Shown here: positions 17,739 through 63,728 of the stretch, piece by piece
How the letters are laid out: each line of letters opens with the position of its first letter
How positions within the stretch are numbered: position 1 is the stretch's first letter
NCBI RefSeq assembly: GCF_037392515.1
Contig: NC_090281.1
Span: 50,782,145-50,846,144, forward strand
Length of the DNA stretch: 64,000 nt
Source: Haliotis asinina
Lineage: Eukaryota > Mollusca > Gastropoda > Lepetellida > Haliotidae
Reading direction: 5' to 3'
Notes under the pieces: model-generated
What the model saw: only the letters and a program-made list of their open reading frames with translations
Told to the model about the DNA's origin: nothing
Database searches by the model: none
Position numbers and translations under genes: made by a program

Positions 17739-18013
17739 TGACCCGTGAAGGTCCCGGGGTAGAATAGGCCTTCAGCAACCCATGCTTGCCATAAAAGGCG
17801 ACTATGCTTGTCGTAAGAGGCGACTAACGGGATCGGGTGGTCAGACTAGCTGACTTGGTTGACACATGTCATCGGTTCCCAATTGCGCAGATCGATGCTC
17901 ATGTTGTTGATCACTGGATTGTCTGGTCCAGACTCGATTATTTACAGACCGTCGCCATATAGCTGGAATATTGCTAAGTGCGACGTAAAACTAAACCCAC
18001 TCACTCACTCACT
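17739..18013 (+). repeat. Family A repeat, near full length
   Basis: Starts with TGACCCGTGAAGGTCCCGGG, runs through TAGAATAGGCCTTCAGCAAC, GGCGACTAACGGGATCGGG, TTGACACATGTCATCGGTTC and CCATATAGCTGGAATATTGC, and ends in ACTCACTCACTCAC. This copy and 39053-39325 are the best consensus sources in the window. Confidence 0.95.
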
Positions 18014-24528: not shown

Positions 24529-24690
24529 GACATTGAGCGGAGACGGGATGACTCGGACCGAGAAAACTGACGCGGAAGTAGTTGCACCGAACTACAAACT
24601 CAGAGATCTGTGGGCGGAGTTTTGTCAGACAACCGCGATTCATGGATTCAATAAGATCACGAGGCGCAATCGTCGATTCACCTTTCGAGG
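24529..24690 (+). CDS. Channel gene 1, coding exon 1
   Basis: Encodes residues 1-47 and two bases of codon 48. The ATG at 24548 is chosen because a pyrimidine-rich acceptor (TCTGCTTGCAG) ends at 24528, so 24529-24547 would be 5' UTR of an exon joined to an upstream untranslated exon not located here. YKLRDLWAEFC and TTAIHGFNKI match the cytosolic N-terminus of the family. The donor is GTAGGT at 24691. An upstream ATG at 24500 in the same frame is possible if the acceptor is not used. Confidence 0.85.
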
Positions 24691-27600
24691 GTAGGTACTA
24701 GAACTGAAGTCACATATACTCGGCGTCATTAATGAAAGGTCAAGCTATTGCATATACTATTTCTTAAAAACTGTAAAATCGTTTTTCGTTTCACTGAATG
24801 TTTTGCAAACTTTCTTTACAGTATGGAAATCACATCAGGTCGCTGAAATGTCGTTAGTGCGTTTTTTCAACTTCCGATACATTCTGTTACAAATGACAAT
24901 TTAATTATTTAAATTGTCATTACGGAAATCCATCTGCCACTTAATGCTATGGACCTCATAGAATCTGGTCAAACTCAGCGGCAGGATGCTGTCCGCTTTA
25001 ATGCTAGAGTGCCATTGGTAGACTGTGGCACAGATTTCAAGCCAGTGGGTCCTAGATCGGTGGTGATCGGTCATGATTTGGGCAGTATTAATTCCTGCTG
25101 AACGTACTGCATCTAGTCGACGGTAATCTTACCGGACAGAGGTAAAGGGACAAGATTCTGGCTTCTCTATCGGTAGCCTTTCCCACAAGCTATACAAGCT
25201 TTTATGGTCGACTCTTTTCACCTAAATACGACAACGCCAAGCCTCACAGGGCCAGTGTTGTCACGGAATTCCACAGGCAGCCCAACTGAGCATGTCTGGG
25301 ATGAACTCAGTCGACGCATGTACACATCAGTGGACTCCGCAGAGCTCTAGTAGACGAATTGAACGCTATTCCGTATATTCTGTTTTCTTTATGAAATTGA
25401 TAGGACGCATGAGAACAATGATGAGGGTACACAAGATACTGAATAACCGTGTGCTTTGCGTTTGTCATTCTCATGTGTTGAGTGGTGGTTGATGTTTGTT
25501 AGAGCTGTGCGAATTTTTTGTCTGTATTTTTAGTCTGTTTTTTTTGTCACGTTTGTAAACACATTTAACATTATGAAGACACTCTTCGTTCTATTATTTT
25601 CGAGAAACCTTTCTTTAAATGCGCTATATATCATTTGACCCTTTATTAATGACGTATAGTATATTTATGTTGTCGGGAGTATTTGATGAAACGTAACATG
25701 TGTTCCTCCTCTGTTCAGTGAAAATCACTCACTCATCCTCTGTTGAGTGAAAATCACTCACTCATCTTCTGATAAGTAGTGCCTGCTATTACGGACCATA
25801 GTGCTACAGAACGATCTTTCTGCTACAATGATTGTAACTCCCATTCTCCATCATAGGCTTACGATAGTTGTAGCGCTAAGATCGCTTTGTGCAAGTGGGC
25901 CCTGGACAGCACTTACACTTTCATTGCTTTCAATACATATACACGCAGCGGTAAGAAGACTTTGTGCAACAGGTTTCTATCCGCTCCGATGTTTCAAACA
26001 TATTCACTGCATCCAATAAAGATACGCAAATCCAGTAAGGCCATGAATCAACAGGAGTTACACCTTTTTACAAGTTACAAATTTTAACAATTTATATTTT
26101 TAACTTTATCAACGAGTGTTGATGTAATTCTATTCTAATCCCAGATTCTATTTATCATCATTAGTTTTCAATGAAAACTGTACATCTTTCCACACCGTAC
26201 ACAATTAGAGTTGCAGTGCAGCGATGCCATAGCATTGTGGCGTCATCAAGTTAATGACGTCATAGCATTGTCAGGGCATTGTACAAAATTTCCTGCCAAA
26301 ACGATATCTCCTGGGAGATATCGTTTGATCTCATACAAGCGATATCTCCTGTGGAACACAGGTTTGGATGATAACATGTTATAAACTCGCCCTGTTTTTG
26401 TTTTTGTTTATCCAGAGTACTTTGGTCAGTTGCTGTATGTGGTGCTACGGCGTTTCTCATCTTCAACCTGATGAGCGAGATTGGGGATTACTACAGCTTT
26501 CCTATTGGCACTAAGGTTACAAACAAAATCAGGAGCACTATTGAATTTCCCGCCGTCACCATCTGCAACAGATGCACCCTCAACAGAAGTCGTCTTATGT
26601 CTTACCCCGATCTTGAGGCATATTTCCGTAACGCAAGCATCAACGAAAGGTCCAGTACAGTATATAATTTCGCCGATATTGTTGACGGTATTATGCAGCA
26701 GTCACAGTCCTTAGAGTGGTGGACCAACATGTCTATGGATGCTTCTTCCTTGTTTAACTTCTGTTACTTCGGAGGAGAAAGTATCGACTGTACGAGCAAT
26801 TTCCGACCTGTGTTCACCGACGAGGGCCTGTGTCATACCTTTAACTTCAACACCAGTGACATTGTCAACGTGAAGACCTCCGGCAACAGAGCCAACCTCA
26901 TCGTAAACTACGACATTGGCCAGAGGTTTTACACATTCAGAGAAAACATGGCGGCGGGGATAAAGGTAAGGCTGACGGCTGACGTTTATGATGAAGTCGA
27001 CCGATGGGGGGCTTACTTTCTGCTGCCCAGTGCCAGACATTTTCAACTCGTAATCACCTAAATGTGATTATTAGAGAGAATGTTATTATCAAATGTCGAC
27101 TGCGTAATGAATTCGTTGAGTCTGTTCAGTACATTGTCAGTGGATGTCCCTTCTTAGCGCAAACTATATCTAAGCGTACCTTAAACGACGTGCTGCCATG
27201 GGTCGTTGTTATTGCCGTCCATCCATGACACAACCCGGAAAATGTCATGGAAAGTAAGCTTACAAACATCTTTGGAATACGTTTACAACCTAAGAACAAT
27301 TCCTGCCAACAAACATGATTTTTTATTTTGTCGATAAATTAATAAATGAATTATTTATGTTATTGAAACTAAACTCACCCACTCCACATCTATATGATCA
27401 TTCGGATCGGAAAGCGTCGGGGCTCCCCATCTGGAGCTCAGTTGGAATTCTGGGGCATGCGAAGGCTGTTGTTTTAGAAAGTGTTTACTTCCTCCTTCTA
27501 GATGAGTTAGACTCGGCAGTGCTTGCTGGGAAAAGTCCCCATCGTTGTCTGGGCTGCGTGTAGAAGGTACAATCAGCCTGTGTCAGGGCCACCCGAACCT

Positions 27601-30600
27601 TCTTTAATGCTTTTACATATCTTGTTCATAACAAATGCGAATGCCTCCGTGATTGGGTGAAGAGAGTCCTGACTGTGTCTGTCCGGGTACCGGAAGTTAT
27701 GTTTATAAATGTTACATTTGTATTTGTTGTTATCGCATTATCCGGATATGAAATAGACGGGATGAGTCCACAAAACTACGTGGGGCATGTATAATAGTTT
27801 CATTGGCTAGGTTCATCAATGAGCTGGCTCTCTCTGGCACACCATGCAGGAATTTGAACTTGTTATGATATCGGGTGATCAGTTACATCATATGATTTTG
27901 AAAAATCTCTGCGATATCTTCAGAGTCAGTTAGAAAACTGTATATAAACTCAGTTTCGTCCTCGATTCAAATATCACGCGTGTGAAACGAATTAAACAAA
28001 CAATAGTGAAATAACACCGTTTAACAATTCTTGGTCGAGTAATTATTTACTTTTTTCATACACATTTGACTAAATTCAAGGAATCGTTTTGCTTCAAACA
28101 CGCAGTTACGCGAAATGCATTCAAACAGGTCAATGTGTCATTATGTAACGTCATTCGTCCCTCTGGTGGTTTAAATAATGAGTGCAATGTTTACAGTGTG
28201 GCTGACATTATAAATCAGCGAGGGATTCATTATTGATATACGCTCTTACTGAGGGCAGCATACAGTGAGGCCATATCGTCCACTAAAGCCATCGTCAACA
28301 GACTTGATCAAACAAGAGACCCGCCTGATCTTGATGGAACCAGTATGATTCTGTTTGCGATGTAGTCTGTTTATGGCATTTGTAGACTCAGCAAATTTGT
28401 TCTTTCGTATAGAATTAGTATGTGGAATAGATAAACCCATATTAAATCATTCGGCAGCAGCTCTACATAACTGGTGCCAGTAAAGGCTTCCTAATTGACT
28501 TCATTACGTGACAATATGTCACTAATATTTGACTTCTTCTGTAACAGTGTGTAACTGAAGATAGGCTTCCTACCTGGGATGTTTCTCTACTGATGTATCA
28601 CTGTTCGTAAAGGCCTCTTACATGGCAGTGTATCGCTGTTCGTAAAGGCTTCTTACACGTCAGTGTATCACTGTTCGTAAAGGCTTCCTAAATGGCAGCG
28701 TATCGCAGTTCGTAAAGGCTTCCTAAATGGCAGTGTATCGCTGTTCCTAACGGCTTCCCACATGCCAGTGTATCACTGATGCTAGGATTCCTACATAACA
28801 ACCAGTGTGCCGAACTATCTTGTAACATGTCAAGCAAACCAGGAAGGATTGTCCACTATGTAAATATATATCATGGACGCCAGAGAAAACCTCGATTATA
28901 GGACGAAAGCGCACAAAAATCATGAAACTTATAAATATTTGAATGGATGCGGAATATCGGTAATGACACCCGGTGGTCGCTAAAAGAGTAAAGATAGTCA
29001 CCCAAAAGCATAAGTTGTAATTGGTTTCCCTTCTTCCAATATATCAGATATTACTGCTCTTTCCACGGTGTTACAGTCAACCTCCACGCCAATTTCTGAT
29101 ACCTGATGCCGTTACTGACGTCGCCTATGGCCATTACAACTTCTAATGGGTTGAAGCCACGTCATATCCTGCCTTCTAATGCATGGTAATCTGAAGCGCA
29201 CACGGAAATCTTATCAATAACCAGTCTGACACTGTAATAGCATGATGGCGACGAAGGTATATCACCAATGCAACTGATTAAGGTATTGAGAATTACAATA
29301 CTAGGAATATCCACCAAAGGATGCGTGAAAATCTGGGCAATACAATATCATTAATGGAAGGCAACCCCTCTAGCAACACGCAATATTTCTATAGGGCATA
29401 GGAAACCGGTGGCATTGTCACTTGTCAATGATGGGGAATCATGGATACACTGTCATGTCGTAAGGCTTTGTTGTCATGTGCAATAAGGAATAAAAGAATT
29501 TTAAAGTATTGTTTTAGGCGTATGTTTAACGAGCGAAATGAATTACAAACACTGTAAGCTCTGTCTCTAATAACATACTAAATGAACTCGTTTGGAGTAG
29601 ATTTAGTTTGGGCTATGCTCAACATTTCTGTTAAATTCCTAATTACCGACTGTAGACAAGTACTGATTAACACTTTGCGCCTGGATTTGTTACCATTATA
29701 ATCACTAAGTGTACATATTGCATCATCGTTTCGCTGTGTGTTAGGGTGGGATAGTGGACACATCGTTCATAGGTTACACGGACGGTCCGGGATTGATTTG
29801 CCAATGGCCAAGATGTACCTGGCTGGACTTGAAATTAAACACTATTTAATGCAAATTTTGTGAATTGTCTGAGCTTTTCCTGAGTTTTTTTACCCAGTAC
29901 GCATACGTCAGTCGCTGTTACTATACGTCTTACGGTAAGTACACACAAATTCGAAGTGCTGAGAAACTGCCGTGTCGACATACTACCATGTATCGACATC
30001 CAGATGTGTGTATCTAAGTGCTGAGATTCCACCATTCATTGGCACCCTGACATGTCTTTCTCAGTACTGAGATACTGCCATGTATTGACACCCTGATATG
30101 TGTTTCTAAGTGCAGAGATACTGTCATGCATTGACACCCAGATATGTGTTGCTAAGTACTGAGATACTGCCATGTATTAACACCCTGACATGTGTTTCTG
30201 AGTGCTGAGATACTACCATGTGTTGACACCCTGACATGTGTTTCTGAGTGCTGAGATACCATTTATTGACACCCTGACATGTGTTTCTAACTGCTGAGAT
30301 ACTACCATGTGTTGACACCCTGACATGTGTTTCCAAGGGTTGAGATTCCACCATGCATTGACACCCTGACGTGTGTTTCTAACTGATGAGATACTGCCAT
30401 GTGTTGACACCCTGAAATGTGTTTCCAAGGGTTGAGATTCCAACATGCATCCTGACATGTGTTTCTAAGTGATGCGATTTCAACATGAATTGACACCCTG
30501 ACATGTGTTTCTAAGTGATAGATAGTGCCATGTGTTGACACCCTGCATACTGCTATATATTGACAATTTATACTTCCAGGTGCTGCTCCACAATTCCAGA

Positions 30601-33600
30601 CATCATCCTGACGCCAATCCCACCGTGGTCATGGCTGCTCCCGGATTCTCCACATATGTTGCCATGCACAAGTCTGAGGTCAATATAAATATTAGGAGAT
30701 GTAGTTTTAGAATAACATTGATGACTCATACATATGTGTTGCTTGTGGGTATACCGTACATATCACAATAACTGAGTTGATCTAGAAGTCAGACCGCACA
30801 ATAGAGAAAATGTGGTGCAGTTCTGGCAGCCGAGTGGGATGTGATCTTTCACAATCAGGAATGATTTAGCTTTGACTTAAATCCGGTTGTCGTCAGCTAC
30901 GGCGAGTGACTACTATGCACTGAACCTTTGGAGGCATTATTAGTATCAATAGTATCATATTATCGAGGATACTTTTGGACTGTCATACAAATTTCCGTTT
31001 ACTGACAGTCTGGGAGAAACTATAATTCAGCTGATGTTAGAAGGAGATACATTTGATAAGTGTCAGTATTGTCTGTATTTGCGTCACATGACGCTCCACG
31101 TGCTGGTATGCTGCAAGACCTTTAAAGCTGACTGATAATGTAACATCTTGTGAAGGTTTGTAGGTGACATTATGTTGGTATACACATTTTGGTGTTTACA
31201 ATGTGAAATATTTGGTTCTCTTGATTTATTAACACCGGCAATAACAAACGCATTTTAAGTGATATCACACACTGAAGAAAAAAGGGTTATTGATACCGTA
31301 GCTCCAAATATACAGGGCCCTCATTTAGCTCTGAAATGTTTAACCATAAACAATTCCAATCCATTCCTTTTGATTGCAATAGGTGATGTGATGAGATCCT
31401 AGCTAATGAAACAGCGGTATTCAAGCGGACAGGTTTCCATTAGGCCACCAGCTTAATTACTTCGCTTCAATCCTTTGTCAGTTCTTTATACAACTGTGAG
31501 TGGGAGGAAAGGGCGGCAGCTGTTAGTTGTTGATAGTTGTTGATAGTTGTTTAGGTTATGCAACATGTTATTATTCTCTTCTGCTTTACTGGTTTAATGA
31601 TTCCTGCATTCAATCTATAGCAAAATACATGTGTTCAAATTCTTGTGATCGATGACTACACTATTCACAGGTACTTGTGTTTTTATACTTTTTAAAGTTC
31701 TATGAGGTATGCTTGTATTTAAATGTATTAATTTTAATTTAGTATTGTAAGCAACGCTTCGGGTTATATGGAGGTCTGGAGATGTATTATCGCCCTGAAA
31801 AGATAAAAACCTCCCACTTATTAGGTATTTCCACTTCTTCAAAGATAACTGGAGAATCATATCATGCTAATCAAAGATCACACAAGCACAGTGTACATAC
31901 GTGTACAGGGAGATTAGGCTTTCAGTACTCCATAAAACTAAGCAGGTATTACTTTTCACAAGTGCATGTTTGATCTTTTTACAATGCATTATAACGCAAT
32001 GAAATACTAGTCATGATTAAATACAGTGAATAGGATGTAATTGTGTGACATTTCACCAATAAGGTAACACGATATCAAGAAGAGACCCATCGTCTCTTGA
32101 AGTGTGTTTGCGCAAAAGATACGATAAACATTTTAAACTACCTTACAAGCCTTTATATGAGTTTATGGAACAAACAAAGCATGAGAGACTTCATTCGCTA
32201 CTTCTGTGCTAATGAGACAATAAACAATTTATTCTGCATACGTGCAACTCATTTTGAAAACCCCCAGCCCATGCAAATGTAACAAGCAACGAGCAAAAAC
32301 ACTCATAAAGCCCAAAATGTAGATATGGTCATCAATAAGCATATCTGGGGCATGTTTTCATCCATAATTACAGGATACTACACAAAGATCCTATAAAAAG
32401 ATCCTATACAAAGATCTTATGCAAAGCTTTATACAAAATGTAAGTCTCTGATAATAGGACATTTTTATAATGAATGAGCCCCAGTGAGCCAGTGGGATTC
32501 TAAACCTACTTCATTTTGGACTATTCCATTGCAGAAAGGGTTAGGCGGAAAGTGTGGAGCATTATACAGACTAATGGCGTGTCTACGGTCCATGCCATTC
32601 AGTGGTAATGTGGTTCTTGAGAGGAAACGCATTTAAATAAATCTTCTATAAATAGTACCATGCGTATTTCTTTCATATAAAAACGAACAGGTGGTGGCTT
32701 CATAATGTCTGTTGGAACAATGCAACATTGCCTACAACCATAGTGTTCATCTAGGTGAGGTCTGTCAATATTTTAGGACTAACGTTGTATTGTTCAAGTT
32801 TAACAGCTGGCGAAAATAGTGATTCACATGAGTCAGTTACACGATGCGATAACTATTATTAATATTTTAATTCTCTGCTTGAAGGACAACATATTCATGC
32901 GACATACTGAAATCGGGAAATGAATGACAGTTGGTCTGTTAGCAGCCATCTGAGCGAGGTCACCCACAACTGTCAATATTTTGGGACTGGCGTAATCGTG
33001 TTGACGTCCTTCATCTGATGAAGTAGTGATTCACTTTAGCCAATTCGATTATGCGATAATTATTAATTGTTTGAAGGACAACGTGGTCTTTCCACATACT
33101 GACATCGTGAAATGATTGAGAATCTGTTAGTATCCATCTAGGTCACCCACTTCTGGCAGTAAATATATACGATGTTAAGGTTTTCAGAGGAAAATTTGAT
33201 TCTAAAGCATCGGACAAGTCTGTCACCGTCTATACCAACTTCTGTGCGCGATCGTGATCAAATGTCACTTGACAATTCCTTCGCTAGGGTACGAGTTACG
33301 CAGAAACCAGTTGATATTGGAGACATTGTGTTGTGTGTGATTGGATTTTGCATGACCTGCAGTCCATATCATTAGACTGATTGCATTATGTTTCGAACCA
33401 TACGTTATCACAGGTTCATAAGCATGTTGCATTGGATCCGTAAAGCAATCGGGGTACAACAATATCCATTATGTAGCAACTGGGATTTGTGGTCGTCATC
33501 GTGTGGTCGTACTCACACACTTGTTTGATGCTTGCCATCGTATCCCACTTGGGGAGACCCATGCCCATAGTGCCAGAACCATCTTATTTGTAACTCTCTG

Positions 33601-36600
33601 TGTATATCATTAGATATTACTAAAACAGAGACCTACATATTTTTATGAACGTAGTTAGAGCAAAACGTTTACAAATATAGTATCTAGGAATATCTTTGAG
33701 TTGTTTTTAAATGTAGGCAGTTAATATTTTGTATTTTCAGCAATTGATTTCTGTCGTAATAGATATTCATTTCATATTTATCCATGACAAAGCCGCAAAC
33801 AAGTTGAACCTTTGACAGCCTCATGGCCATGCATGTAAAAGTCAGTATACAGGTAGGTGTGATTGTAAGAGGTTAAACCAGTTGTGTTTAATTCAGCGAG
33901 TGAATGTGGGCCTACTCGTGACCTTGACATTGATGATATTGACCAACATGTCAACTTGGAACTCACTATGACTATTAAGAACAATAGATACGAATTGATA
34001 TGAAGGAAATATTGCTTGCGTTATGATGGTATAACTGACTCATCATTCGTTGATGAGCAAAGGAAGACGTTTGTAATATGTAATAGAATTATACATTTTT
34101 ATCAGTTCTTTCTGTTATATTGTGTGATGTATCTTCGACATATTAGTATATGGCATCGTTAATCCTACCTACAGCATGGAACTGTTACTGGTGAACAGAC
34201 ATAGTGTAACATTTTGCTGATCTAAAATTAATACAAAGTACCATTTTTTGCTTCATTCTAATGTTTTCGTGCTTACAGTGCCAACTAAATGTATATGCAG
34301 TCTTCAAATGAAGATGGAATTGAACAACTTAATTTTAGTAAAATTAACTTGTAAAGGGTATATAGAGTGTTATTGTCCACAATTTTACTTCGTGATCTAA
34401 GCTCTCCAAAAGAGTTATTAGGATGAAATAAAAAATAAACTGTCCTGTTGTGGGCTGAAATAATACCATGTGTGAAATGATATATTGCACCTTAACAGGG
34501 CCCTGCCACGGTAGTCACGAACGGAAGTCGATGACAACCGGCTTTAAATAAAACTAAATCATTCCTGATTGTGAAAAATCACATCCCATTTGGTCACCAA
34601 AACTGCAGGGAGGTCTGATTTCCTTACTAGCTCAGACAAGATGTGACGATTGAACTAATCACTGTGAAATAATCTTTCATTTAGGATGATATCATTCATA
34701 TTTTATTCACACTTTAACACTTTAGGGTAGTACCGTTCAGGTAACTGTAAATTTGGTCAAACGCGTGATGGAATCGTTAGTGGGAATATACAGAACACGG
34801 AGCTGAACAAGAAAGGTTTGTATGTCCGAACACAGGACTGAATTAGGTGAGTACGTTACTTGTTTATCGCTGCAAGCGTACATCAATAAGACTGTCTGTA
34901 AATAATGATATCTGGATAAGAAAGTCTTCTGATCTCTGCAACCGAAATACGGTGACGTGTCAAGCAACTCAGCAATCACGACCAGCCGTCGTTAGTCGCC
35001 TCTTACGACAAGCATTGGTTACTGAAGACCCATTCTAACCCTGATATTGACTGGTGCAAGGTATAAGGAACGAAAACTAGGGTTTCATTGTGAGGCTATG
35101 TCACACGGCTGATCCACTCAATAGGGTGCCAGGAATGTTACTGGAAACAACATCAAATCACTAAATGTCATCGTATAAACAGACTTCAGCAAGTCACCTC
35201 ATAAATTTGGGTCCTTGTTTTGTAGTACGTGTACCTGCCTCACCCCTACATGGCGTTTGATGAAATGGAGTGTGTGGACACAAATCGTCCCGACTTTGTG
35301 AATCCTCTCAAGTACTACTCCCCCTACACCTATGACCATTGCTTCATGGAGTGTATCCAGACCAAGGCCTACAACCTTTGTGGATGCGTCGGACCTTCTG
35401 ATCCACGTAAGTTACATTCGTATCTACTCGTGTCATTCCGGCAAGACGGATGACGTCACGCGTCTCTCTCGTCGCCATGCATGCGACTGAGCCTTGTCAA
35501 AGCGCAAATGAGCGCGGAGATGAAAATAGTCTAATACTATTCCAAGTATAGATAACTCTAAATATCCAAAAATGCAGCATATCCCGTGGGCAAAACAGCT
35601 AGTCATTCCCGAGCTAAAGATGTTTCAGTGTTAAAAGTTCTTCATCCTTTAGCTCAAAGTCTATGTTTAAATTGTGCTTGGCATAGCTTATCGAAGATTC
35701 AAAGTTCAACGATGCCGCTGTTTTCATGCTTTGAAATGCGTTTTTACTACGCGCAATTTGATTGGTTTGTCTGCATCGAGGATAACATCCATATGCATTT
35801 GTCCCAAGTAGATATATAGTTGAAGCAACATTCTGGTCGCTACTATTAAAGAGCGTTACAACATTCAAGGCTGCAGTAAGGCTTTCAATATGTATATAGA
35901 GTCATTCCCAAAGTTGACACATTAGTTACAAAAATAGTGCCCGATGGAATTCCCATGCATGAAACTGCGACGGGTGTCGCAGGTGAGACATACCTAATGG
36001 TTCCCCTTTTGTAGCATTAATAATCTTTTCCCCGAACCATTCTCCTTACGTTGATTATGATCTCGAAATAATGAGGTTTTTTCTCGTTACTTCCGTTATT
36101 TTTCTCGTAATTTGTGGAATTATTTTCTCGTTACTTTAAATTTCATCTTGTTGTCGCCGATCCACCCATTCATAAAATGTCAATGTGTGTTGCCATTTAC
36201 CTGTCGTCTGTAATGCATAAATAATGAGTCATTTACCGCAATGATTTGAAATAAATGCCCTTATTACCACCAGGATCAGCAGAACCCGATATCCCAATCT
36301 GCTCCCTGGAGAAGCAGGACACCTGTTATTCGATATCTGTTCGTGAGTATCATATGTCCACTTATTGTAATACTTGAAGTAACCAGCGTTTTGATTCCAG
36401 GTAGGAACAGATTCTTAGCAAGTAATGCTTGTTCTAAAGCTGCCAGTATTTTTGTCCATGTATCACTTCGCCGCCCTCCATGAATGTTCATTCCGATTTG
36501 AAACAGTGAAAGTTTTCTCATCTCAATTTTCCAAGCTACTGTGGGAATTTTACACTTTCGCGATATAAATAAATACCCTGACCTTTGAACACTATAAACC

Positions 36601-39600
36601 CCAGGTCAATCTCATCTTTAGTTATTTGCATTTATTAGCAATGTTTCCGAATCATTCAATCTGCACCATAAAATATGTTGAAGGTTATTACCACATGACT
36701 GAAGTTTTTCTAATTTAAAATTAAAATTACACAATCAATGAGAGACATTTTTTCAAGTTTTTTACTTTTATTTCCTTTTTCAATAACCTGCTCATGCACT
36801 TGCTGGTTAACGGTGCAGAATAAAAACACATAATAAATGCACAGGGCCTATGAGAGAACAGGTTTCGCTTCACTGGAATAGTGTGTCATATAATCTCACG
36901 GTGGATAGTTGCTGGTATAATAAGTCACTGGGTTTTCTGGCCCAGTTTCGATTGTTTGTTTTTTTGTTGTTTTTTGTTGACTTGCCTCAAATCGGCACGT
37001 CAGTGAGGAAACTAGTATTGCGAAATATTAGTTACCTGGGTGAGTTTTCCTAATTCCCATTTTTAAAAAAATAATATCGTACATTACACTAAAAACAGGC
37101 ACGTCATTATACATCCATGGTAACTGGCTAAATATACTTTTGTATCTGTAGAAATTCTGCATGTCACTATATGTACAAATGCTGCATGTCCCTGTCTGTA
37201 GAAATACTGCATTTCACTCTCTGTGGAAATAGTGTATGTTACTATCTGTGGAAATACTGTATGTCACTATCTGTGGAAATACTGCATGTCACTATCTGTA
37301 GAAATACTGCATGTCATTATCTGTAGAAATACGGCATGTCACTATCTGTGGAAATAGTGGATCTCACTATCTGTGGAAATGCTGCATGTCACTATCTGTA
37401 GACATACTGCATGTCACTATCTGTAGAAATACGGCATTTCACTATCTCTGGAAATACTGGATCTCACTATTTGTGGAAATACTGCATCACTGTCTGTTGA
37501 AATGCTGCATGTCACTGTCTGTACATAACTGCACTGCGGAAATGCTGCTGTAAGGTTATATTATTATTTTATTATTTATATATATTTACATAGCGGCCAT
37601 ATCCAGATCACCTGCTCTAGGCGCTCTGTTTAGAGAAATACTGCATGTCACTATCTTTGGAAATACTGCATGTCACAATATGTAGAAACATCGTGTGTCA
37701 GCGTCTAAGGAAACTTATGAATTTACAGGTGAAATGTTCAAGAACACCACATTGGAGGCGGAGTGTCAATGTGGCACACAGTGCAATTTTGAGACGTTCA
37801 ATGCGCAAGTGTCGTCAAGCGCGTACCCAGCGGAAATCTGGGCAGAAACGTTGAACAACAATACTAATTCGGAGACTTCCGAATTCTTCAGGTAACTTCC
37901 GTTTGTGCCAGTATCCGTCCATCGTAAATTGTCCTGTTTACGATAACCTTCTACACTAGAATTCTTCAGTCAATATTCGTGCAGTACTAGTTTTGTTTTT
38001 CATATGCCCATCGACAAACTATTTATATATTATATATATAAATATAATTCTTTCCAATGTTATGTTTAAAGTTTGATATTAAGATTTTCATCACTATTTG
38101 GGGCGTGATTCCAAGAAGTTCTCCATTGGGACATGTTACGTTCATGATGACATGCAATTCCTAGTATCAGTATGTCATGTCTAAGAAAGAATGTTTGGAA
38201 TAACAATATTGAGATTGATATATGATATATTATTAATGTTATTGATGCAGTAGTATTTTGAGATATATTGATGGTATGTAAATATCTGCCTGACCCATAG
38301 AGCAGGGGTTGGAATTAGCTCATTAATTCATGATCAGTTCAATAATCATTTACGGAAGTATATTAGTACATTTAGTTACATACAGTTTTATCGTCCACTT
38401 CAGGAATAACTTCTTGGAGCTGAGAGTGTTCTACGACAAGATGATGGTGACATCCATAAAACAACATCCTCAGTACACGCGAGCCACTCTGTTCTGTTAG
38501 TACCCACCTTCATAGCCGGGTTGGAATTGGCCTTTGGAAAGTCATGCTTGTCCTGTGAGGCAGTAAAAGGGGTCTGGTGGACAGTGACTTATTTATGATG
38601 CATATCATTTTATCCCAGTTGCAAAGCCGAATGCTCGCTGGCCTGTGTGGTCCACATCGGGTGGTCAGACCCGAGGACCTGGTTGACACATGTCATCAGT
38701 TCCCAACTGTTCAGATCAATGCTCATGCTGTTGTTCACTGGATTGTCTGGTCCGGACTCGACTATTTGCAGACCGCCACCAAATAGCTGGAACATTGCTG
38801 CGTGCGGCTTTGAACAGCAAACAACACAAATTGACCGTACCTAGTTTACCTTGATTCCCACAGCCATGTTAGTCCTGTCTGTGTAGACGTCCTGGTCGAT
38901 ATTGAAAATGAGGACGTCGTAGCATCGTCACCTGCCGCCAATGCTATGACAATTTCACTGTTATTGTAGTTGAAGGTATGGCACAATCCTTCAGTGGTGA
39001 AAACAGGTCGGAATTTCCCCATGCAGTCAAATAATTCACCACCAAAGGAATATGACCCGTGAAGGTCCCGGGGTAGAATAGGCCTTCAGCAACCCATGCT
39101 TGCCATGAAAGGCGACTGTGCTTGTCGTAAGAGGCGACTAACGGGATCGGGTGGTCAGGTTCGCTGACTTGGTTGACACATGTCATCGGTTCCCAATTGC
39201 GCAGATCGATGCTCATGTTGTTGATCACTGGATTGTCTTGTCCAGGCTCGATTACTTACAGACCGCCGACATATAGCTGGAATATTACTGAGTGCGGCGT
39301 CAAACTAAACTCACTCACTCACTAGTATTTCACTAGTATTCTCCATAGAAATATTCCTCTACCATTCTAACGACAATGGTATGTGAAACAATCTCACTCA
39401 CTCACGTGTCCATGTCACACGGACAACTGTCATAAAGCTGGAATGATACTTAGTGCGGCTTTTACAAAATACATTTAGAGACTGTTAAGAATATAAGCCT
39501 GTCTGAATATTCAGCTTGTCTAAACGCTCCTTAGAGTTGCGTCCCTTGCCAACCTGGATCATCTGGGTGATAAACGTCTACAAGCTGTGTTCATTTTACT

Positions 39601-40114
39601 TTCCAACGTGATATTCCCAGCATGGGTACAGTGTGTGAAGTCCATTTTTGGTGCCCCCCTGTCGTGGTGTTGCTGTAACACTGCTGAAAACAACGTAAAA
39701 CATAATGTCACTCACTCACTGTAATAAGACGGGAAGTTAAGCAATAAATATGTGATATAATGGAAACAGTCTTCAAGCTGTCAGTGAACCCTAAACCATT
39801 TATTGGCCAAGATAATAGATTTCACAGATTAATTATTTTTAAAAGTGTATATTATATATCCGTGTACAAGCATATGAAATTTCTGATACCGGTGCGTTCA
39901 ATAAAGTATTAGCTGTTTGTGGGGAAATACATTGCTGGTGAACTAAGCTATTGCTTTTGTTGTTGCAGCTAATGTCGGTGGTCAGATGGGATTGTGTCTC
40001 GGAGCCAGCATCCTGACAGTGGCAGAGATCGGGGAGCTCCTCACGTTCATGTTTCTGTACATGATGGACAGGCTTAGAGGACGAAAAGCAGAAAACAGGT
40101 TTAATAGATGGTGA
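24548..40114 (+). CDS. ENaC/degenerin/ASIC family sodium channel, gene 1 (8 coding exons)
   Basis: Predicted subunit of a trimeric, plasma-membrane, amiloride-type sodium channel. Coding exons: 24548-24690, 26416-26965, 30580-30678, 35226-35406, 36274-36342, 37729-37891, 38404-38495, 39969-40114. All seven introns are GT..AG and phases match (2,0,0,1,1,2,1), giving 480 residues, a little short for the family. Seen in order: cytosolic HG gating motif (32-33), TM1 (about 49-67), FPAVTICN (92-99), GLCHTFN (185-191), a C-x3-C-x8-C-x-C cluster in exon 4, CxCGTQC in exon 6, and TM2 with the GAS selectivity triplet (444-446) followed by AEIGELL. Several N-glycosylation sequons lie in the extracellular part. 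In molluscs this family includes FMRFamide-gated and acid-gated channels; the ligand cannot be told from sequence. No defect seen. Gene 2 at 62276 is a tandem paralogue. Confidence 0.93.
24892..25360 (+). mobile_element. Tc1-type transposon relic in intron 1 of channel gene 1
   Basis: Near its right end DNAKPHRASVVTEFHRQ (about 25230-25280) is the second catalytic block of a Tc1-type transposase. It is followed almost at once by TEHVWDELSRRM in another frame, the third block. An N-terminal piece like MDLIESGQTQRQDAVRFNA (about 24950-25005) fits the first helix-turn-helix. The centre and part of the core are missing, so it is dead. At its left a 30-base palindrome AATGACAATTTAA..TTAAATTGTCATT (24892-24921) may mark an end. 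It belongs to a different lineage from the 51489 element. Confidence 0.65.
26095..26375 (+). repeat. Dispersed repeat P, copy 1, with palindromes
   Basis: Matches 48450-48745 over most of its length, with small gaps. It contains TATCAACGAGTGTTGATG and, at about 26302-26327, AACGATATCTCC-TGGGAGATATCGTT, an almost perfect palindrome, then a third GCGATATCTCCTGTGG. The copy ends about 40 bases before the exon 2 acceptor. No coding content. It may be a foldback-type MITE. Confidence 0.75.
26416..26965 (+). CDS. Channel gene 1, coding exon 2 (TM1 and palm/finger)
   Basis: Encodes residues 48-231: TM1, then YYSFPIGTKV, FPAVTICNRCTLN, SLEWWTNMSMD, NFRPVFTDEGLCHTFNF and NMAAGIK. Acceptor TTTATCCAG, donor GTAAGG at 26966. 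It is roughly half identical in residues to exon 2 of gene 2 and ends at the same codon and phase, so both genes share one ancestor. Confidence 0.95.
26966..28554. other. Intron 2 of channel gene 1, first part
   Basis: No repeat family or gene recognised in this part. ORFs here have no motif. Confidence 0.5.
28555..28795 (+). repeat. 35-bp tandem repeat, about six units
   Basis: The unit CAGTGTATCGCTGTTCGTAA plus AGGCTTCCTACATGG recurs with CTTACACGT and CCTAAATGG variants. It lies in intron 2 and fades at both ends. Confidence 0.88.
28796..30004. other. Intron 2 of channel gene 1, middle part
   Basis: Nothing recognised. Confidence 0.4.
30005..30548. repeat. 46-bp minisatellite, about eleven units, beside exon 3
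   Basis: Unit TTGACACCCTGACATGTGTT plus TCTAAGTGCTGAGATACTACCATGTG with variable length. It ends about 31 bases before the exon 3 acceptor at 30579, inside the zone where branch point and pyrimidine tract usually lie. Overlapping minus-strand ORFs are readings of the repeat. Confidence 0.92.
30580..30678 (+). CDS. Channel gene 1, coding exon 3
   Basis: Encodes residues 232-264, VLLHNSRHHPDANP to YVAMHKSE, matching the family's 'VLLHD...GYHTYVAI.K' segment. Acceptor TATACTTCCAG, phase 0 on both sides. The donor is GAG-GTCAAT, the weakest of the gene's seven. Confidence 0.9.
30788..30925 (+). repeat. Inverted repeat Q-left in intron 3
   Basis: About 135 bases including GGGATGTGATCTTTCACAAT and CAGGAATGATTTAGC recur in reverse at 34500-34628 with moderate divergence. 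Together they bracket about 3.6 kb of intron 3. Confidence 0.75.
32745..33165 (+). repeat. About 200-bp tandem duplication in intron 3
   Basis: The order GTCAATATTTT-GGACT, TAGTGATTCAC, GCGATAA-TATTAAT, GAAGGACAAC, GACATACTGA, CATCTAGGTCACCCAC appears twice, with a partial third start. The two units are moderately diverged. Confidence 0.75.
34500..34628 (-). repeat. Inverted repeat Q-right in intron 3
   Basis: Reverse complement partner of 30788-30925. The outer TCAGACC and inner GTCGTCAGC/GTCATCGAC motifs line up. Confidence 0.75.
34891..35055 (-). repeat. Family A repeat, partial
   Basis: CGTTAGTCGCCTCTTACGAC and CTGAAGACCCATTCTAACCC are clear. The left part is diverged and the tail is missing. 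It ends about 170 bases before exon 4. Confidence 0.75.
35226..35406 (+). CDS. Channel gene 1, coding exon 4
   Basis: Encodes residues 265-324 plus one base. YVYLPHPYMAFDEMECVD leads into YTYDHCFMECIQ and NLCGCV, the C-x3-C-x8-C-x-C core of the ENaC family signature (at the D, E, A and Y positions it departs from the strict PROSITE-style pattern). Acceptor TTGTTTTGTAG, donor GTAAGT at 35407. Confidence 0.94.
36274..36342 (+). CDS. Channel gene 1, coding exon 5 (69 bp)
   Basis: Small exon for residues 325-347, SAEPDIPICSLEKQDTCYSI, with two cysteines. Acceptor TTATTACCACCAG, donor GTGAGT. Phase 1 in and 1 out, so skipping it would keep the frame. Confidence 0.85.
37143..37690 (+). repeat. 25-bp minisatellite, about 15 plus 3 units, beside exon 6
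   Basis: Unit ATGTCACTATCTGTGGAAAT plus ACTGC. A main block runs to about 37530, then an AT-rich break, then about three more units at 37637-37690. The last ends about 38 bases before the exon 6 acceptor at 37728. ORFs here are readings of the repeat. Confidence 0.92.
37729..37891 (+). CDS. Channel gene 1, coding exon 6
   Basis: Encodes residues 348-401 plus two bases, with ECQCGTQCNFETF and SSSAYPAEIW matching the family's 'C.CP..C....Y..S.S...WP' segment. Acceptor TGAATTTACAG, donor AG-GTAACT. Confidence 0.93.
38404..38495 (+). CDS. Channel gene 1, coding exon 7
   Basis: Encodes residues 402-432 plus one base. NNFLELRVFYDKMMVTSI fits the segment before TM2 ('N...L.VYY..L.'). Acceptor GTCCACTTCAG, donor GTTAGT at 38496. 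Phase 2 in, 1 out. Confidence 0.9.
38512..38818 (+). repeat. Family A repeat in intron 7, diverged
   Basis: Landmarks CCTGGTTGACACATGTCATC, TTCACTGGATTGTCTGGTCC and ACCGCCACCAAATAGCTGG. An internal stretch (about 38580-38640) does not match other copies. Confidence 0.85.
38836..39051 (-). pseudogene. Inverted fragment of a gene-2-like channel exon 2
   Basis: Read on the minus strand this gives FGGELFDCMGKFRPVFTTEG, then LCHTFNYNNSEIV and AAGDDA. It aligns with FGGEDFECMSRFRPVFTTEG of gene 2 exon 2 and is clearly nearer to gene 2 than to host gene 1. The match runs past the exon end into GGTAAACTA, the gene 2 donor and start of its intron, so it comes from genomic DNA, not from mRNA. A one-base loss after GDDA shifts the frame, and the exon's 5' half is absent. 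It lies antisense in intron 7 of gene 1, directly between two family A repeats in the same orientation. It is a dead fragment of a third paralogue or of gene 2 itself. Confidence 0.88.
39053..39325 (+). repeat. Family A repeat in intron 7, near full length
   Basis: Full from TGACCCGTGAAGGTCCCGGG to ACTCACTCACTAG. It abuts the inverted exon fragment. A further short tail-like piece (AAGCTGGAATGATACTTAGT) is at about 39430-39465. Confidence 0.95.
39625..39722 (+). repeat. SINE family B, 5'-truncated
   Basis: GGTACAGTGTGTGAAGTCCATTT and body lead to AACGTAAAACATAATGTCACTCACTCACT. The tRNA-like head is missing. Confidence 0.75.
39969..40114 (+). CDS. Channel gene 1, last coding exon 8 (TM2)
   Basis: Encodes residues 433-480 and the TGA stop at 40112-40114. 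NVGGQMGLCLGASILTVAEI is the pre-TM2/TM2 pore segment with the GAS selectivity filter. Only about 14 residues (RLRGRKAENRFNRW) follow TM2, a short cytosolic tail. Acceptor TTTTGTTGTTGCAG. Confidence 0.95.
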
Positions 40115-40323
40115 CGATGCTACCACATGTGGATACTTTCTCATGTCGACGACGATGTTTATGCAACAGGGCTCCCGATGTTCATCCTGCTCTACCTCTG
40201 AGAAGTGTAGGAAGAAAGTCAAGCTACAAAATTCAAAACGGAAAGGGTACAAACCCCTGAATCCTATTATCGATGTAAATGTTTAGACAACTGAAGCATT
40301 GTTTATACGGCCATCTTCAAAGG

Positions 40324-40437
40324 TGTCTCATAGCCAGCATGTTGACAGTAACAGAGATTATTGAGCTCTTGGTGTTCTTCTTTGACAAGTCTAGAGTATA
40401 TCCTACACCAGGCAGCTGTAGTAACACAACCTCTTGA
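40324..40437 (+). pseudogene. Relic of a channel TM2 exon downstream of gene 1
   Basis: Frame starting at 40324 reads CLIASMLTVTEIIELLVFFF, which aligns with CLGASILTVAEIGELLTFMF of gene 1 exon 8. The upstream NVGGQMGL part and a good acceptor are missing, and the first position of the GAS triplet is Ile. It lies in what would be the 3' UTR of gene 1. I read it as the decayed last exon of a lost tandem copy; partial local duplication of exon 8 is the alternative. Confidence 0.75.
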
Positions 40438-46193: not shown

Positions 46194-48083
46194 GACTAAA
46201 CATTACACGGAGGCATTAACAAGTAAATACAAATGAAGATAACATCAAAGACGTCTGTGATGAAAAGGTTGGATTGTAAGGTTTCTTGTGTTTTCTAGCT
46301 CCGCACTCCTCTCTAAATAGACTAAACATTACACGGAGGCATTAACAAGTAAATACAAATGAACATAACATCAAAGACGTCTGTGATGAAAAGGTTGGAT
46401 TGTAAGGTTTACTGTGTTTTCTAGCTCCGCACTCCTCTCTAAATAGACTAAACATTACACGGAGGCATTAACAAGTAAATACAAATGAACATAACATCAA
46501 AGACGTCTGTGATGAAAAGGTTGGATTGTAAGGTTTCTTGTGTTTTCTAGCTCCGCACTCCTCTCTAAATAGACTAAACATTACACGGAGGCATTAACAA
46601 GTAAATACAAATGAACATAACATCAAAGACGTCTGTGATGAAAAGGTTGGATTGTAAAGTTTCTTGTGTTTTCTAGCTCCGCACTCCTCTCTAAATAGAC
46701 TAAACATTACACGGAGGCATTAACAAGTAAAAACAAATGAACATAACATCAAAGACGTCTGTGATGAAAAGGTTGGATTGTAAGGTTTACTGTGTTTTCT
46801 AGCTCCGCACTCCTCTCTAAATAGACTAAACATTACACGGAGGCATTAACAAGTAAATACAAATGAACATAACATCAAAGACGTCTGTGATGAAAAGGTT
46901 GGATTGTAAGGTTTACTGTGTTTTCTAGCTCCGCACTCCTCTCTAAATAGACTAAACATTACACGGAGGCATTAACAAGTAAATACAAATGAACATAACA
47001 TCAAAGACGTCTGTGATGAAAAGGTTGGATTGTAAGGTTTCTTGTGTTTTCTAGCTCCGCACTCCTCTCTAAATAGACTAAACATTACACGGAGGCATTA
47101 ACAAGTAAATACAAATGAAGATAACATCAAAGACGTCTGTGATGAAAAGGTTGGATTGTAAGGTTTACTGTGTTTTCTAGCTCCGCACTCCTCTCTAAAT
47201 AGACTAAACATTACACGGAGGCATTAACAAGTAAATACAAATGAACATAACATCAAAGACGTCTGTGATGAAAAGGTTGGATTGTAAGGTTTCTTGTGTT
47301 TTCTAGCTCTGCACTCCTCTCTAAATAGACTAAACATTACACGGAGGCATTAACAAGTAAATACAAATGAACATAACATCAAAGACGTCTGTGATGAAAA
47401 GGTTGGATTGTAAGGTTTCTTGTGTTTTCTAGCTCCGCACTCCTCTCTAAATAGACTAAACATTACACGGAGGCATTAACAAGTAAATACAAATGAAGAT
47501 AACATCAAAGACGTCTGTGATGAAAAGGTTGGATTGTAAGGTTTCTTGTGTTTTCTAGCTCCGCACTCCTCTCTAAATAGACTAAACATTACACGGAGGC
47601 ATTAACAAGTAAATACAAATGAAGATAACATCAAAGACGTCTGTGATGAAAAGGTTGGATTGTAAGGTTTACTGTGTTTTCTAGCTCCGCACTCCTCTCT
47701 AAATAGACTAAACATTACACGGAGGCATTAACAAGTAAATACAAATGAAGATAACATCAAAGACGTCTGTGATGAAAAGGTTGGATTGTAAGGTTTACTG
47801 TGTTTTCTAGCTCCGCACTCCTCTCTAAATAGACTAAACATTACACGGAGGCATTAACAAGTAAATACAAATGAACATAACATCAAAGACGTCTGTGATG
47901 AAAAGGTTGGATTGTAAGGTTTCTTGTGTTTTCTAGCTCCGCACTCCTCTCTAAATAGACTAAACATTACACGGAGGCATTAACAAGTAAATACAAATGA
48001 AGATAACATCAAAGACGTCTGTGATGAAAAGGTTGGATTGTAAGGTTTCTTGTGTTTTCTAGCTCCGCACTCCTCTCTAAATA
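46194..48083 (+). repeat. 126-bp minisatellite, 15 units in perfect register
   Basis: The unit starts GACTAAACATTACACGGAGG and ends CTCCGCACTCCTCTCTAAATA. It repeats exactly 15 times, 126 bases each, with no length change. Differences are almost confined to two biallelic sites: GAAGATAAC or GAACATAAC, and GTTTCTTGTG or GTTTACTGTG. Neighbouring units often share alleles. Such uniformity means a very young or actively homogenised array. Each unit holds TTTCTTGTGTTTTCTAG, which resembles a splice acceptor. Confidence 0.97.
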
Positions 48084-48449
48084 GACTATACAAAAAGGAA
48101 AGGCATTAGCCATGGTTGGAAGACTTTATTGCGTTAGTTTAAGAACGATTATTTCATGTAATTTCAGGGGTGATAAGATGGAAATTGACACCTCTATAGA
48201 CAGAGAGATCGCCATAAATCTATATCAAATGCTTCTCAATAGACCTAAATTTTCAGTAATTCTCACATTACTAAATAGTTGGCAGCCATTTTTAAACACC
48301 CGATATGGAAGTCACTTCCATGTGACTACTACAGTAAACTTCGAACAGTGGCTATAATAGTATATAGAGCATCTCACCCAAGGGTCTACTGATATCAAAC
48401 ATACCAACACGAAATGATAAAATAACACATATCCGAGGCTTGTCGAGGA
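48084..48449. other. Flank of the array with an unrecognised 81-residue ORF
   Basis: Plus-strand ORF 48112-48357 (segments such as LTLLNSWQPFLNTRYGSHFH) starts just past the array. I do not recognise it. Confidence 0.3.
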
Positions 48450-50639: not shown

Positions 50640-51145
50640 TCCACGTCAATACCGTGACACTGTAAATGACACGGAAGGATAAAGATAAATGTTAGATGCA
50701 TATTGGCACAGAACAAAAAGTAAACAGTGTCGCGATCGACTCCCAGTTAATTACAAACATGTTTTTTAACAGTAATGGCTACAGAGAAACGGGGAACTGT
50801 TGGATCATCATCTGTACTTGTCACCAAGCAGTAGAGTTATGCAAATTTTTGTTTACCTGCAATCAGGGTGGAGGCAATCTCGCTGATATGCGACAGGACA
50901 CGTAGAATAACAGAATCTGATTAACCCATAACCCGCTTCTCAGAACCCTGTGTTGTCAGTGCTTTTACATAAACCGGCGACACAACGTTTGTCTGTATGC
51001 ATCTTATCACACACGTGCGTGGTTGATTGCATGTCAACTGCTCGATGCAAGGATAAAGGATGAAGAACTACAGATACAGATGTTGACATAGACTGTGAGC
51101 GAGTGTCATAGGACGTCGGGATAAGTTCAGTCAGCAATGCGACTC
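50640..51145 (+). repeat. Dispersed repeat T, copy 1
   Basis: About 500 bases match 58880-59395 at moderate to high identity, including AACAGTAATGGCTACAGAGA, AAACGGGGAACTGTT, TCTCGCTGATATGCGACAGG, AACCGGCGACACAACG and CATGTCAACTGCTCGATGCA. No transposase or tRNA-like part is seen. It is an unclassified interspersed repeat or a local duplication. Confidence 0.82.
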
Positions 51146-51488: not shown

Positions 51489-52778
51489 TATTCCCAGAAA
51501 TTATTGAGAAAATCTTTGGTTTTTTTCTAATGATGCTAAGATTGGAAAAAGGGCTTTCACTATGCACTAAGCATACTAAATAAGGGAGACAACTCTTGAA
51601 GGCTTAGAAGGCAGCTCAGTACGTCAAGAGTTATCTCCCTTGTCTGAGCAGACGGCTTCCTGTGTTGACATGGCAGAATTTACAGCAAGAGAGAAAAGAA
51701 AGCTCATTCTAGATGATTTTGAAAGGGGTGTGGCTGATGCTAAAGTGTTAGCTTGTAGACATGGTATTCCTCTGTCTACAGTATACAGAACTTTGAAGAA
51801 TATTCAAACAGGAACCGGGATAGAGCACAAAGCAGGGGCAGGTCGGCCTAGGAAATTCAGTGTTGTGGATCGCCGAAGACTTGGGCAGATTGTGAGTAGG
51901 GGCAAATTGAAAAGTGTTGAGAACATCAGAAATGAAATGATTAGCAGAGAAAGTCCTCAGGTATGCAATGAAACAGTTAGGCAGGAATTACAGAGACTTA
52001 ATTGGGTGAATTGGGTGGAATTCCCTCGCCTTTGATGAAAGATGCACAAAAGGAAAAACGTTTAAACTGGTGTCGGGCTCATGAAAATCAAGATTGGGAT
52101 AATGTTTTCTTTTCGGATGAAAGTTCTGTTTGGCTTTTCCCTAATTGTGTGAAAATTTGGACCAAAGATACTGTCAAACCTATCTACCAGCGACCAAAAC
52201 AGAGCCCGAAGTTTCACATGTGGGGTGGCATATCGGCTCGCGGAGTGACACCATTGTGTGTTGTCACGGGAAACTTGACAAAAGAAAGATACGTTGACAT
52301 TCTAAATGGTCACCTTCTTCCGACAGCACAAACATTGTATGAAGATGATTGGATTTTCCAGCATGATAATGACCCAAAACACACTGCGCGCTACACAAAA
52401 CAGTGGTTGTCGGGCGAAAATGTTCAAGTTTTAGACTGGCCCAGTTACAGCCCAGACCTAAACCCAATTGAGAATGTGTGGGGAGTCATGAAGGACAGAA
52501 TAAACCAAAAGGGACTGAGAAATATTGAAGATATGAAGGCCGAGGTGATCCAATATTGGGATACCCTGTCACACGATTACCTACAAACTTTGATGGGTAG
52601 TGTGCCTAGGCGTATTCCGGCATGCATTGCTGAGCGAGGAGGTCTAACAAAGAACTAAAACAAGACTGAGACTGTAAAAGGATGATGTTTTAACATGTTT
52701 ATGTCAGTAAAACGCCAGAAGTTAATAAACGTAATGAGTTACATGACGCAACATGATTCTCAATAATTTCTGGGAATA
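51489..52778 (+). mobile_element. Tc1/mariner DD34E transposon, near complete (copy 2)
   Basis: Terminal inverted repeats of 22 bases at 51489-51510 and 52757-52778 are perfect complements (TATTCCCAGAAATTATTGAG then AA), ending in TA as expected for the family's TA target. Total length is about 1.29 kb, normal for Tc1. Between the left repeat and the transposase lies a second palindrome: 18-base arms at 51582-51599 and 51624-51641 with one mismatch and a 24-base loop. The transposase reading (51670-52658) has one frameshift. It inserted into dispersed repeat R. Confidence 0.95.
51670..52658 (+). pseudogene. Tc1-type transposase with one frameshift
   Basis: The start is the first ATG (51670, MAEFTAREKRK). 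The N-terminal part holds a helix-turn-helix (about ILDDFERGVADAKVLACRHG and IPLSTVYRTLKNI), a GRPRK hook and a second helix-turn-helix to about 52020. The frame then moves by one base near 52005-52030. The catalytic part follows: D in FFSDESSVW, D in FQHDNDPKHTA and E in LNPIENVWG. I count 34 residues between the second D and the E, so the enzyme is DD34E. All three catalytic residues are kept, and the total length would be about 330-340 residues, normal for the family. It is disabled only by the frame change, so it is young. Confidence 0.93.
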
Positions 52779-53067
52779 CTACACATATACGGGTACTGCA
52801 CACAGTTTCAACTATTATTGCAAATGTGGTTCTATACAACAATGTAAACATAAAGAACTAGGGGTTTGGGTATTACACAACAATATAAAGATGCGTATTC
52901 ATACTCGATCGTTACAGTTTACATAATTGTTCTGACATAATATTTCCGAAATAGGTTTTCGTAGTTATAGCGCAGAAATCATGTGATGAGCACTGAAACC
53001 TGTGTTGGTTTATGTCCACGAACATGACCGCAATTGAACGTAAATACCCTTTAACCTCTGCAAAAAT

Positions 53068-62275: not shown

Positions 62276-63484
62276 ATGCGCATGGACGGAAAGTTGCCGG
62301 ACTCTGCCACAGCAGAAAAACAGTCGACAAAGTATGGACTTAAAGATCTGTGGGATGAGTTTTGTCACTCTACAGGCCTTCATGCAGTGAGCAAGATCAA
62401 AACTCCTTCGGCCAAGCCAATTAGCATTCGTGGGTAGGTGTGCTTGTTCCTGTAAATACACATCTTGTGTGTATCGACTGACCTGGCAGTGGGTAGAGAT
62501 TGATCTACCTTAACGGAGGACAAAATGTGTAGGGATTCACCGATCTGAATGAATGCAACAAACATGGGTGAAAGAACGATCATAGTGAGTTTAGAAATTT
62601 GGGAGCCATTTGTGAACGTTTTGTTTTGTTTCTATAAAGTCATAAGAACGGATGGGACAATGACATGAGTTATAATGAGTCAAGCAAGAAAGTTATATGA
62701 GAGGCACACGTACTTTTCAGACGTCTAATGTAAGGAGAACCAAACAAACTTTGGTTTTACGAAAGGTTGACTGGGTATAGATAATACATCATCATACGGG
62801 TACGCTGACAGTCAGCGAGCCTGACCACCCGATCCCCTTAGTCGCCTCTTATGCAGGTGTTGCTGGAGACTAATTGTAACGTAGATTTTTGCAGGTCACA
62901 AGCCATGGTAAGTATTAATCAGTATCATTTGGTTCAACAGGCTCATGTGGATGTTAGCTGTCTGTTCAACCACCGCGTTTCTCATCTATAACCTTATCGA
63001 TGAGCTGGAGACATATTACAGCTATCCCACCGTCACCAAGGTCACAACCCAAATGACGTCCTTCGTCGAGTTTCCCGCCGTCACCATCTGCAACAGATGC
63101 ACCCTCAACAAAACCCGCCTTGATGCTTACCGTGGGTTGGAAGACTATTTCTTCAATACTTCACAAGAACTGAACAGAAATTTTTCATTTCCTGAACCAA
63201 CTTCAGATTTGTTTCACAAACCATTGTCTTTAGAATGGTGGAGGAATGTTTCCATGGATGGAGACGAAATGCTGGTGATGTGTTCCTTTGGTGGTGAAGA
63301 CTTCGAATGTATGAGCAGGTTCCGACCTGTTTTCACCACTGAAGGATTGTGCCATACCTTCAACTTCAACAACAGTGAAATTGTCAAAGCATGGACGGCA
63401 GGTGACGATGCTAACCTCATCCTCATTTTCAACATCGATCAGGACGTCTACACATACAAGGCTAACATGGCTGCTGGAATTAAG
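62276..63484 (+). CDS. ENaC/degenerin/ASIC family channel, gene 2 (first two coding exons)
   Basis: Paralogue of gene 1, cut by the right edge. Exon 1 is 62276-62433 (donor GTAGGT, phase 2) and exon 2 is 62941-63484 (acceptor TTCAACAG, donor GTAAAC, phase 0), the same structure and phases as gene 1. It gives 234 residues so far. KDLWDEFC in the N-terminus, TM1 (about 54-73), YYSYPTVTKV, FPAVTICNRCTLN, SLEWWRNVSMDG, RFRPVFTTEGLCHTFNF and NMAAGIK are visible. The cytosolic gating motif reads His-Ala (residues 36-37), where gene 1 and the family have His-Gly. No stop or frame change is seen. The ATG at 62276 is chosen as the first after the acceptor; a second in-frame ATG lies two codons on. About 22 kb separates it from gene 1. 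Confidence 0.92.
62434..62940. other. Intron 1 of channel gene 2
   Basis: 507 bases, GTAGGT to TTCAACAG. It holds a short family A piece on the minus sense at about 62810-62870 (GTCAGCGAGCCTGACCACCC, TAGTCGCCTCTTATGC). In gene 1 the same intron is 1725 bases, longer by a Tc1 relic and repeat P. Confidence 0.85.
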
Positions 63485-63507
63485 GTAAACTAAGTAGGGT
63501 TAATCTG

Positions 63508-63728
63508 TGTTGTTTGTTTGTTGTTTAACGCCGCACTAGGCACTATTCCATCTATTTGGCGGTGGTCTGTAAATAAACTAGTCTACACCAGACAATCCAG
63601 TGATCCACATCACTAGCCCGACATACGCAGTTTTGAAAAGATGACGCGTGTCATCTGAACACTCGGTCTTGTCAGTCAGGTACCCGTCTTACGACAAGCA
63701 TGGGTTGCTGAAGACCATCTCACAGGTT
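63508..63728 (-). repeat. Family A repeat in intron 2 of gene 2, diverged
   Basis: TTTAACGCCGCACTAGGCAC, GGCGGTGGTCTGTAAATAAA, ACCAGACAATCCAGTGATCC and TTACGACAAGCATGGGTTGC. Only about 24 bases downstream of the exon 2 donor. Confidence 0.85.

Follow-up and report, generated by a model that had tools for sequence, protein, structure and literature searches.

The stretch of DNA analyzed here, referred to below as the window, comprises 64,000 nucleotides of Haliotis asinina (C2:50782145-50846144), whose genome assembly spans 1.14 Gb in 159 contigs. Two channel-type genes lie on its plus strand. A Pfam scan, which covered the parent-type exons (exon 2 of gene 1 and exon 2 of gene 2), placed both in PF00858 (ASC, amiloride-sensitive sodium channel), a family that we take to be the one customarily named DEG/ENaC. 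Exon 2 of gene 1 (26416-26965, plus) was recognized by hmmscan of positions 26417-26968 with an E value of 6.3e-24 (85.3 bits), and exon 2 of gene 2 (62941-63484, plus) was recognized in positions 62942-63490 with an E value of 5.5e-28 (98.6 bits). When gene 2 exon 2 was compared with the sequences of solved structures, the best few matches were to ASIC5 and ASIC1, with E values of 9e-12 to 2e-10. Seven exons of gene 1 were found on the plus strand, at 24548-24690, 26416-26965, ~30580-30678, ~35226-35406, ~37728-37891, ~38405-38495, and 39969-40112; one further exon may have been missed, a test join of the exons kept phase in some parts but not throughout, and the boundaries given for the middle exons are approximate. 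The last two of these exons flank the last intron of gene 1 (38496-39968, plus), which begins with the donor GTTAGT and ends with the acceptor TTGCAG, and they are joined across it by an in-frame junction (...TLFSNVGGQMGLCLGASILTV).

Inside this intron, on the minus strand and with plus-strand exons of gene 1 on both sides, lies a piece of a paralogous channel exon, as a first-pass annotation of the DNA had proposed. BLASTN comparison of positions 38836-39051 with the window gave a best match to 63496-63283 (minus), with 86.9% identity over 214 bases (E 4e-71), a span that takes in the donor side, while the same query matched exon 2 of gene 1 at 78% over just 82 bases (E 4e-14). The minus-strand fragment comprises the 3' part of a copied exon 2 (part A, 38850-39052) and the first ~25 bases of the copied intron 2 (38823-38849), with the donor GT at 38848-38849. 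These intron bases could be aligned with gene 2 and with a minus-strand relative at 50721 kb, ~100 kb upstream (g50721m). The claim that the match to gene 2 extends through the splice donor into the first intron bases was thus confirmed by alignment (GTAAACTAGGTACGGTCAATTTGTG versus GTAAACTAAGTAGGGTTAATCTGTG). The fragment had also been said to be nearer to gene 2 than to gene 1, and its alignment with gene 2 agreed. Over 278 aligned exon bases, the p-distance to gene 2 was 0.169 for the fragment in the window and 0.155 for the version found in a second assembled copy of the locus, and the latter differed from gene 1, the more distant paralogue, by 0.392 (15-17% versus 39% difference). On this distance and on the weaker BLASTN match, exon 2 of gene 1 was rejected as the source. 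The second-copy version was equally near gene 2 and g50721m (C2:50721429-50721893), at 0.155 in both cases.

The homology of the fragment is larger than first noted. Similarity continues past the donor into the left-hand repeat (38726-39050 versus 63612-63283, 83%), and the copied exon resumes beyond the right-hand repeat (part B, 39326-39394, minus), where 39342-39391 matched 63258-63209 at 90% over 50 bases and a peptide match covered 39391-39320. The fragment had been described as lying exactly between two equally oriented repeats, and this arrangement was observed; its homology, however, does not end at those repeats, as the left one was copied with it and the exon continues past the right one. 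At the left edge, clear similarity to the repeat consensus ends at ~38653, and at the right edge another repeat-like 3' piece is present (~39400-39460). On the minus strand of the window, the exon-2 peptide matched the fragment alone at E < 1, and six peptides from the remaining exons of gene 1 yielded no fragment better than E 0.23. A larger minus-strand pseudogene with further exons was rejected on these results. On the plus strand, just 3' of gene 1, a second decayed channel fragment was observed (40309-40383); it copies the TM2 exon motif and matched the last exon of gene 1 at 60% over 25 amino acids (E 6e-5).

The two repeats are termed SINE-like, a label given from their size, dispersed copies, and simple-sequence tails alone. 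The first (38653-38822, plus) stands at the same site after the donor, and has the same AAACAAC-type 3' end, as the repeats of gene 2 and g50721m, and it was inherited from intron 2 of a gene-2-type parent; its counterpart in intron 2 of gene 2 has its body at 63520-63653 (minus). The second (39053-39325, plus) lies inside the copied exon and is 94% identical to 17739-18009. Since one repeat came with the fragment and the other lies within it, the placement of both needs no special mechanism. While the intron-2 repeat occupies one shared site in gene 2, g50721m, and the fragment, it did not appear in gene 1, g50711m, g50887, g50904, and g50923, where the opening 100-264 bases of the intron were compared. 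The retained intron bases, and a repeat placed as in gene 2 and g50721m, indicate that the fragment arose through copying of DNA from a member of the gene-2 subfamily.

The placement of the parent within that subfamily was examined using the derived sites of the repeats and a tree of the exon. Four derived sites were common to the three repeats, all in the 3' end or tail. Ten sites were common to gene 2 and g50721m, five to the fragment and gene 2 (three of which lie where the repeat of gene 2 aligns poorly), and two to the fragment and g50721m, a count that favors grouping gene 2 with g50721m. As the repeat body of the fragment carries none of the 10 derived sites common to gene 2 and g50721m, an independent insertion or conversion of its repeat is, strictly speaking, still conceivable. 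In the exon tree (279 columns), the fragment groups weakly with g50721m (SH-aLRT 76.8, ultrafast bootstrap 67). The exon tree and the repeat sites disagree on the parent within the subfamily.

The fragment is dead as coding sequence. A 1-base deletion was located near 38916-38920, with the frame breaking between 38921 and 38915; the peptide of part B (LFHIPLSLEW*RNISM) shows a Trp-to-stop change at ~39359-39361, and the coding frame is also interrupted by the repeat inside the exon. Changes on the fragment's own branch were counted for the second-copy version at codon positions 1, 2, and 3, and the values obtained were 7, 7, and 7 with g50711m as outgroup, 5, 9, and 8 with g50887, and 5, 7, and 5 with gene 1; sites changed in the fragment alone that the respective outgroup left unpolarized (11 of 32, 11 of 33, and 16 of 33) were omitted. 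The changes were thus spread evenly over the codon positions, indicating that no coding constraint acted on this branch. The corresponding counts between gene 2 and g50721m were 5, 2, and 12.

The relatives of the fragment form a local cluster. When the fragment was searched as DNA against the whole genome, at least 10 matches were returned, representing five loci in two assembled copies each: the fragment itself, gene 2, g50721m (minus), a paralogue at 50887 kb (plus), and a paralogue at 50711 kb (minus). A protein search of the genome with gene 2 exon 2 returned at least 51 matches, including more distant relatives elsewhere. Seven exon-2 copies from this search make up the local cluster at 50.71-50.93 Mb, in minus orientation at 50711 and 50721 kb and in plus orientation at 50808, 50845, 50887, 50904, and 50923 kb, with a second assembled copy at 54.04-54.27 Mb. 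Among the matches listed, the fragment was the sole isolated exon fragment in the cluster, the other short match being the frame-shifted start of g50721m, and none was closer to gene 2 exon 2 than g50721m. In both of its assembled copies (C2:50721429-50721978 and 54055206-54055755, both minus), g50721m is frameshifted by one base in exon 2 and lacks an AG at the aligned acceptor. Judged from these two defects, it would appear to be another pseudogene of this subfamily and a more complete one.

The second copy of the host intron, at 54.144 Mb, carries the fragment with the same flanks and the same decay. Between the two copies, part A differed by one substitution in 203 bases and part B by two substitutions and seven gap columns in 69 bases. 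The first-pass annotation had allowed that the segment might be an assembly artefact, absent in other individuals, and its presence in the second assembled copy makes an artefact unlikely. The locus copies are ~98% identical in aligned blocks of more than 1500 bases (range 93.6 to 99.8%) and differ by both substitutions and indels; the summed mismatch of 1.8% is a rough figure, as the blocks include overlapping tandem-repeat alignments. Both copies lie on one contig, separated by 3.32-3.34 Mb; collinear pairing at ~97-98% was seen between C2 49.28-50.92 and 52.60-54.27 Mb for the cluster and for one outside point, at 52.60 Mb, which paired with 49.28 Mb at 97% (the best 40 of 3603 candidates being scored). 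For a point at 51.20 Mb, no partner was found near 54.5 Mb among the best 40 of 470 candidates scored. On these alignments, the second copy may be an unpurged haplotype or a large recent segmental duplication. Whichever its origin, the maximum-likelihood branch common to both versions of the fragment (0.148 substitutions per site) indicates that the fragment is older than the split of the locus copies. A tandem array with a 126-bp step (window 46194-48092) was observed to be about twice as long in the second locus copy. It was also observed that C2:51200001-51201500 and C7:50736864-50738363 are 100% identical over 1500 repeat-rich bases, and this stretch may represent either a transposon copied very recently or a duplication made in assembly.

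Taken together, these data indicate that the feature is very probably a truncated, unprocessed (DNA-level) duplicated pseudogene fragment in a channel-gene cluster. Homology, a retained intron, a broken frame, and no coding constraint were all found, and in the last three of these, as well as in its position near the parent family, it resembles duplicated-pseudogene fragments of other gene clusters. It differs from them in that part of one exon, with its intron, lies inverted inside the intron of a paralogue. A segment of a gene of the gene-2 subfamily, consisting of the 3' part of exon 2, the donor, and the beginning of intron 2, where its repeat was already present, would have been copied in inverted orientation into the present last intron of gene 1. 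We infer that this copying took place by repair or recombination, perhaps aided by the repeats at the edges. Decay would have followed, through the frameshift, the stop, and the insertion of the second repeat into the exon, and the fragment would be expected to leave with the gene 1 intron by splicing. It is most likely without function.

SINE-like sequence abuts or interrupts the fragment on both sides, which is what might be seen if an exon fragment had been brought to the site as RNA by a SINE or another element. Such retroposition or transposon capture is, however, highly improbable, given that an unspliced intron and the parent's own intronic repeat are kept and that no clear target-site duplication was found in a by-eye look at the edges of the second repeat. 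A processed pseudogene or retrocopy was rejected on the retained intron bases. An origin as an assembly or haplotype artefact could draw on the presence of the locus twice on one contig at ~98% identity, with one copy that may be an unpurged haplotype. Both copies carry the fragment, however, and yet differ elsewhere, so that the same error would have been needed twice, and this origin is almost certainly not the correct one.

The remaining alternative concerns an effect on gene 2, which the first-pass annotation had considered conceivable. The pre-mRNA or the excised intron of gene 1 might pair with transcripts of gene 2 or of gene-2-like genes, through a 46-nt core and ~215 nt at 87% complementarity, and so act in trans by RNA-mediated down-regulation or endo-siRNAs. 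The orientation of the fragment is the right one. When the 15.6-kb transcript span of gene 1 was compared with the 1.7 kb of gene 2 that lies in the window, a single perfect complement of at least 21 nt emerged, namely a 46-nt block (38968-39013, minus) identical to gene 2 63320-63365 and to g50721m. On sequence grounds, transcription of gene 1 would make this run antisense to gene 2. The predicted duplex energy was -322 kcal/mol, compared with a mean of -81 kcal/mol for 20 shuffles of the fragment, but this value merely restates the sequence identity. Moreover, a complement located in an intron is expected to be removed in the nucleus, and the fragment decays evenly over the codon positions. 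Such trans-acting antisense pairing is very unlikely to be at work. The 46-nt block contains no fragment-specific change and is slightly longer than chance would give: in 20,000 permutations with the second-copy fragment, the longest such run had a P value of 0.048 (279 positions, 34 changes) or 0.031 (189 positions, 22 changes), in a test that was conceived after the block had been seen and is thus post hoc and marginal. When the run test was applied to differences from gene 2 alone, values of 0.7% and 0.5% were obtained, which are confounded by the coding constraint on gene 2. It could be that the 46-nt core has been kept as an RNA-level cross-regulator complementary to gene 2 and to the broken g50721m while the coding remainder decays freely, a proposal to which we attach very little probability. 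Local gene conversion would equally yield the 46-nt block. The regulatory role proposed for the fragment is not supported; the fragment evolves like dead DNA, and the sole hint of constraint is the post hoc P value of 0.03-0.05.

There is nevertheless a gastropod precedent that counts in favor of antisense action. The NOS-pseudogene RNAs antiNOS-1 and antiNOS-2 of Lymnaea stagnalis are described as expressed and as associated with negative regulation of NO production (PMC7878882); the Lymnaea work is also cited in the reference list of PMC12589416. As in the present case, that pseudogene-derived sequence comes from a gastropod and has its complement in the mRNA of a functional paralogue. In a study of human pseudogene-derived trans-NATs (Muro and Andrade-Navarro 2010, PMC2984423), the set, found through ESTs, derives mostly from duplicated pseudogenes, and uneven mutation along trans-NATs is taken as a sign of possible constraint. 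Here too a pseudogene is antisense to a parent gene, and the 46-nt block would be a weak case of uneven change. However, the Lymnaea antiNOS molecules are expressed RNAs and the human set is EST-derived, whereas the present fragment is known from DNA sequence alone, with its complement in an intron. If an antisense effect were true, an intron of a gastropod channel gene would target its neighbor, in a manner comparable to that of the Lymnaea NOS pseudogene.

To return to the duplicated pseudogene fragment, such remnants are what duplication ordinarily leaves behind in a cluster of channel genes with many dispersed repeats. The fragment provides an example of inverted paralogue debris accumulating in the introns of a tandem ion-channel cluster, and the shared repeat insertion marks its line of descent. 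Literature searches on the SINE-like repeat family or on molluscan DEG/ENaC clusters gave no title on either among the matches listed, and absence from print is not claimed.

The window also contains open reading frames at 51580-52820 and 1-612 that presumably resemble a Tc1/mariner-type transposase. In translated comparison, window positions 1-612 were observed to be a 91-96% copy of 52209-52820.
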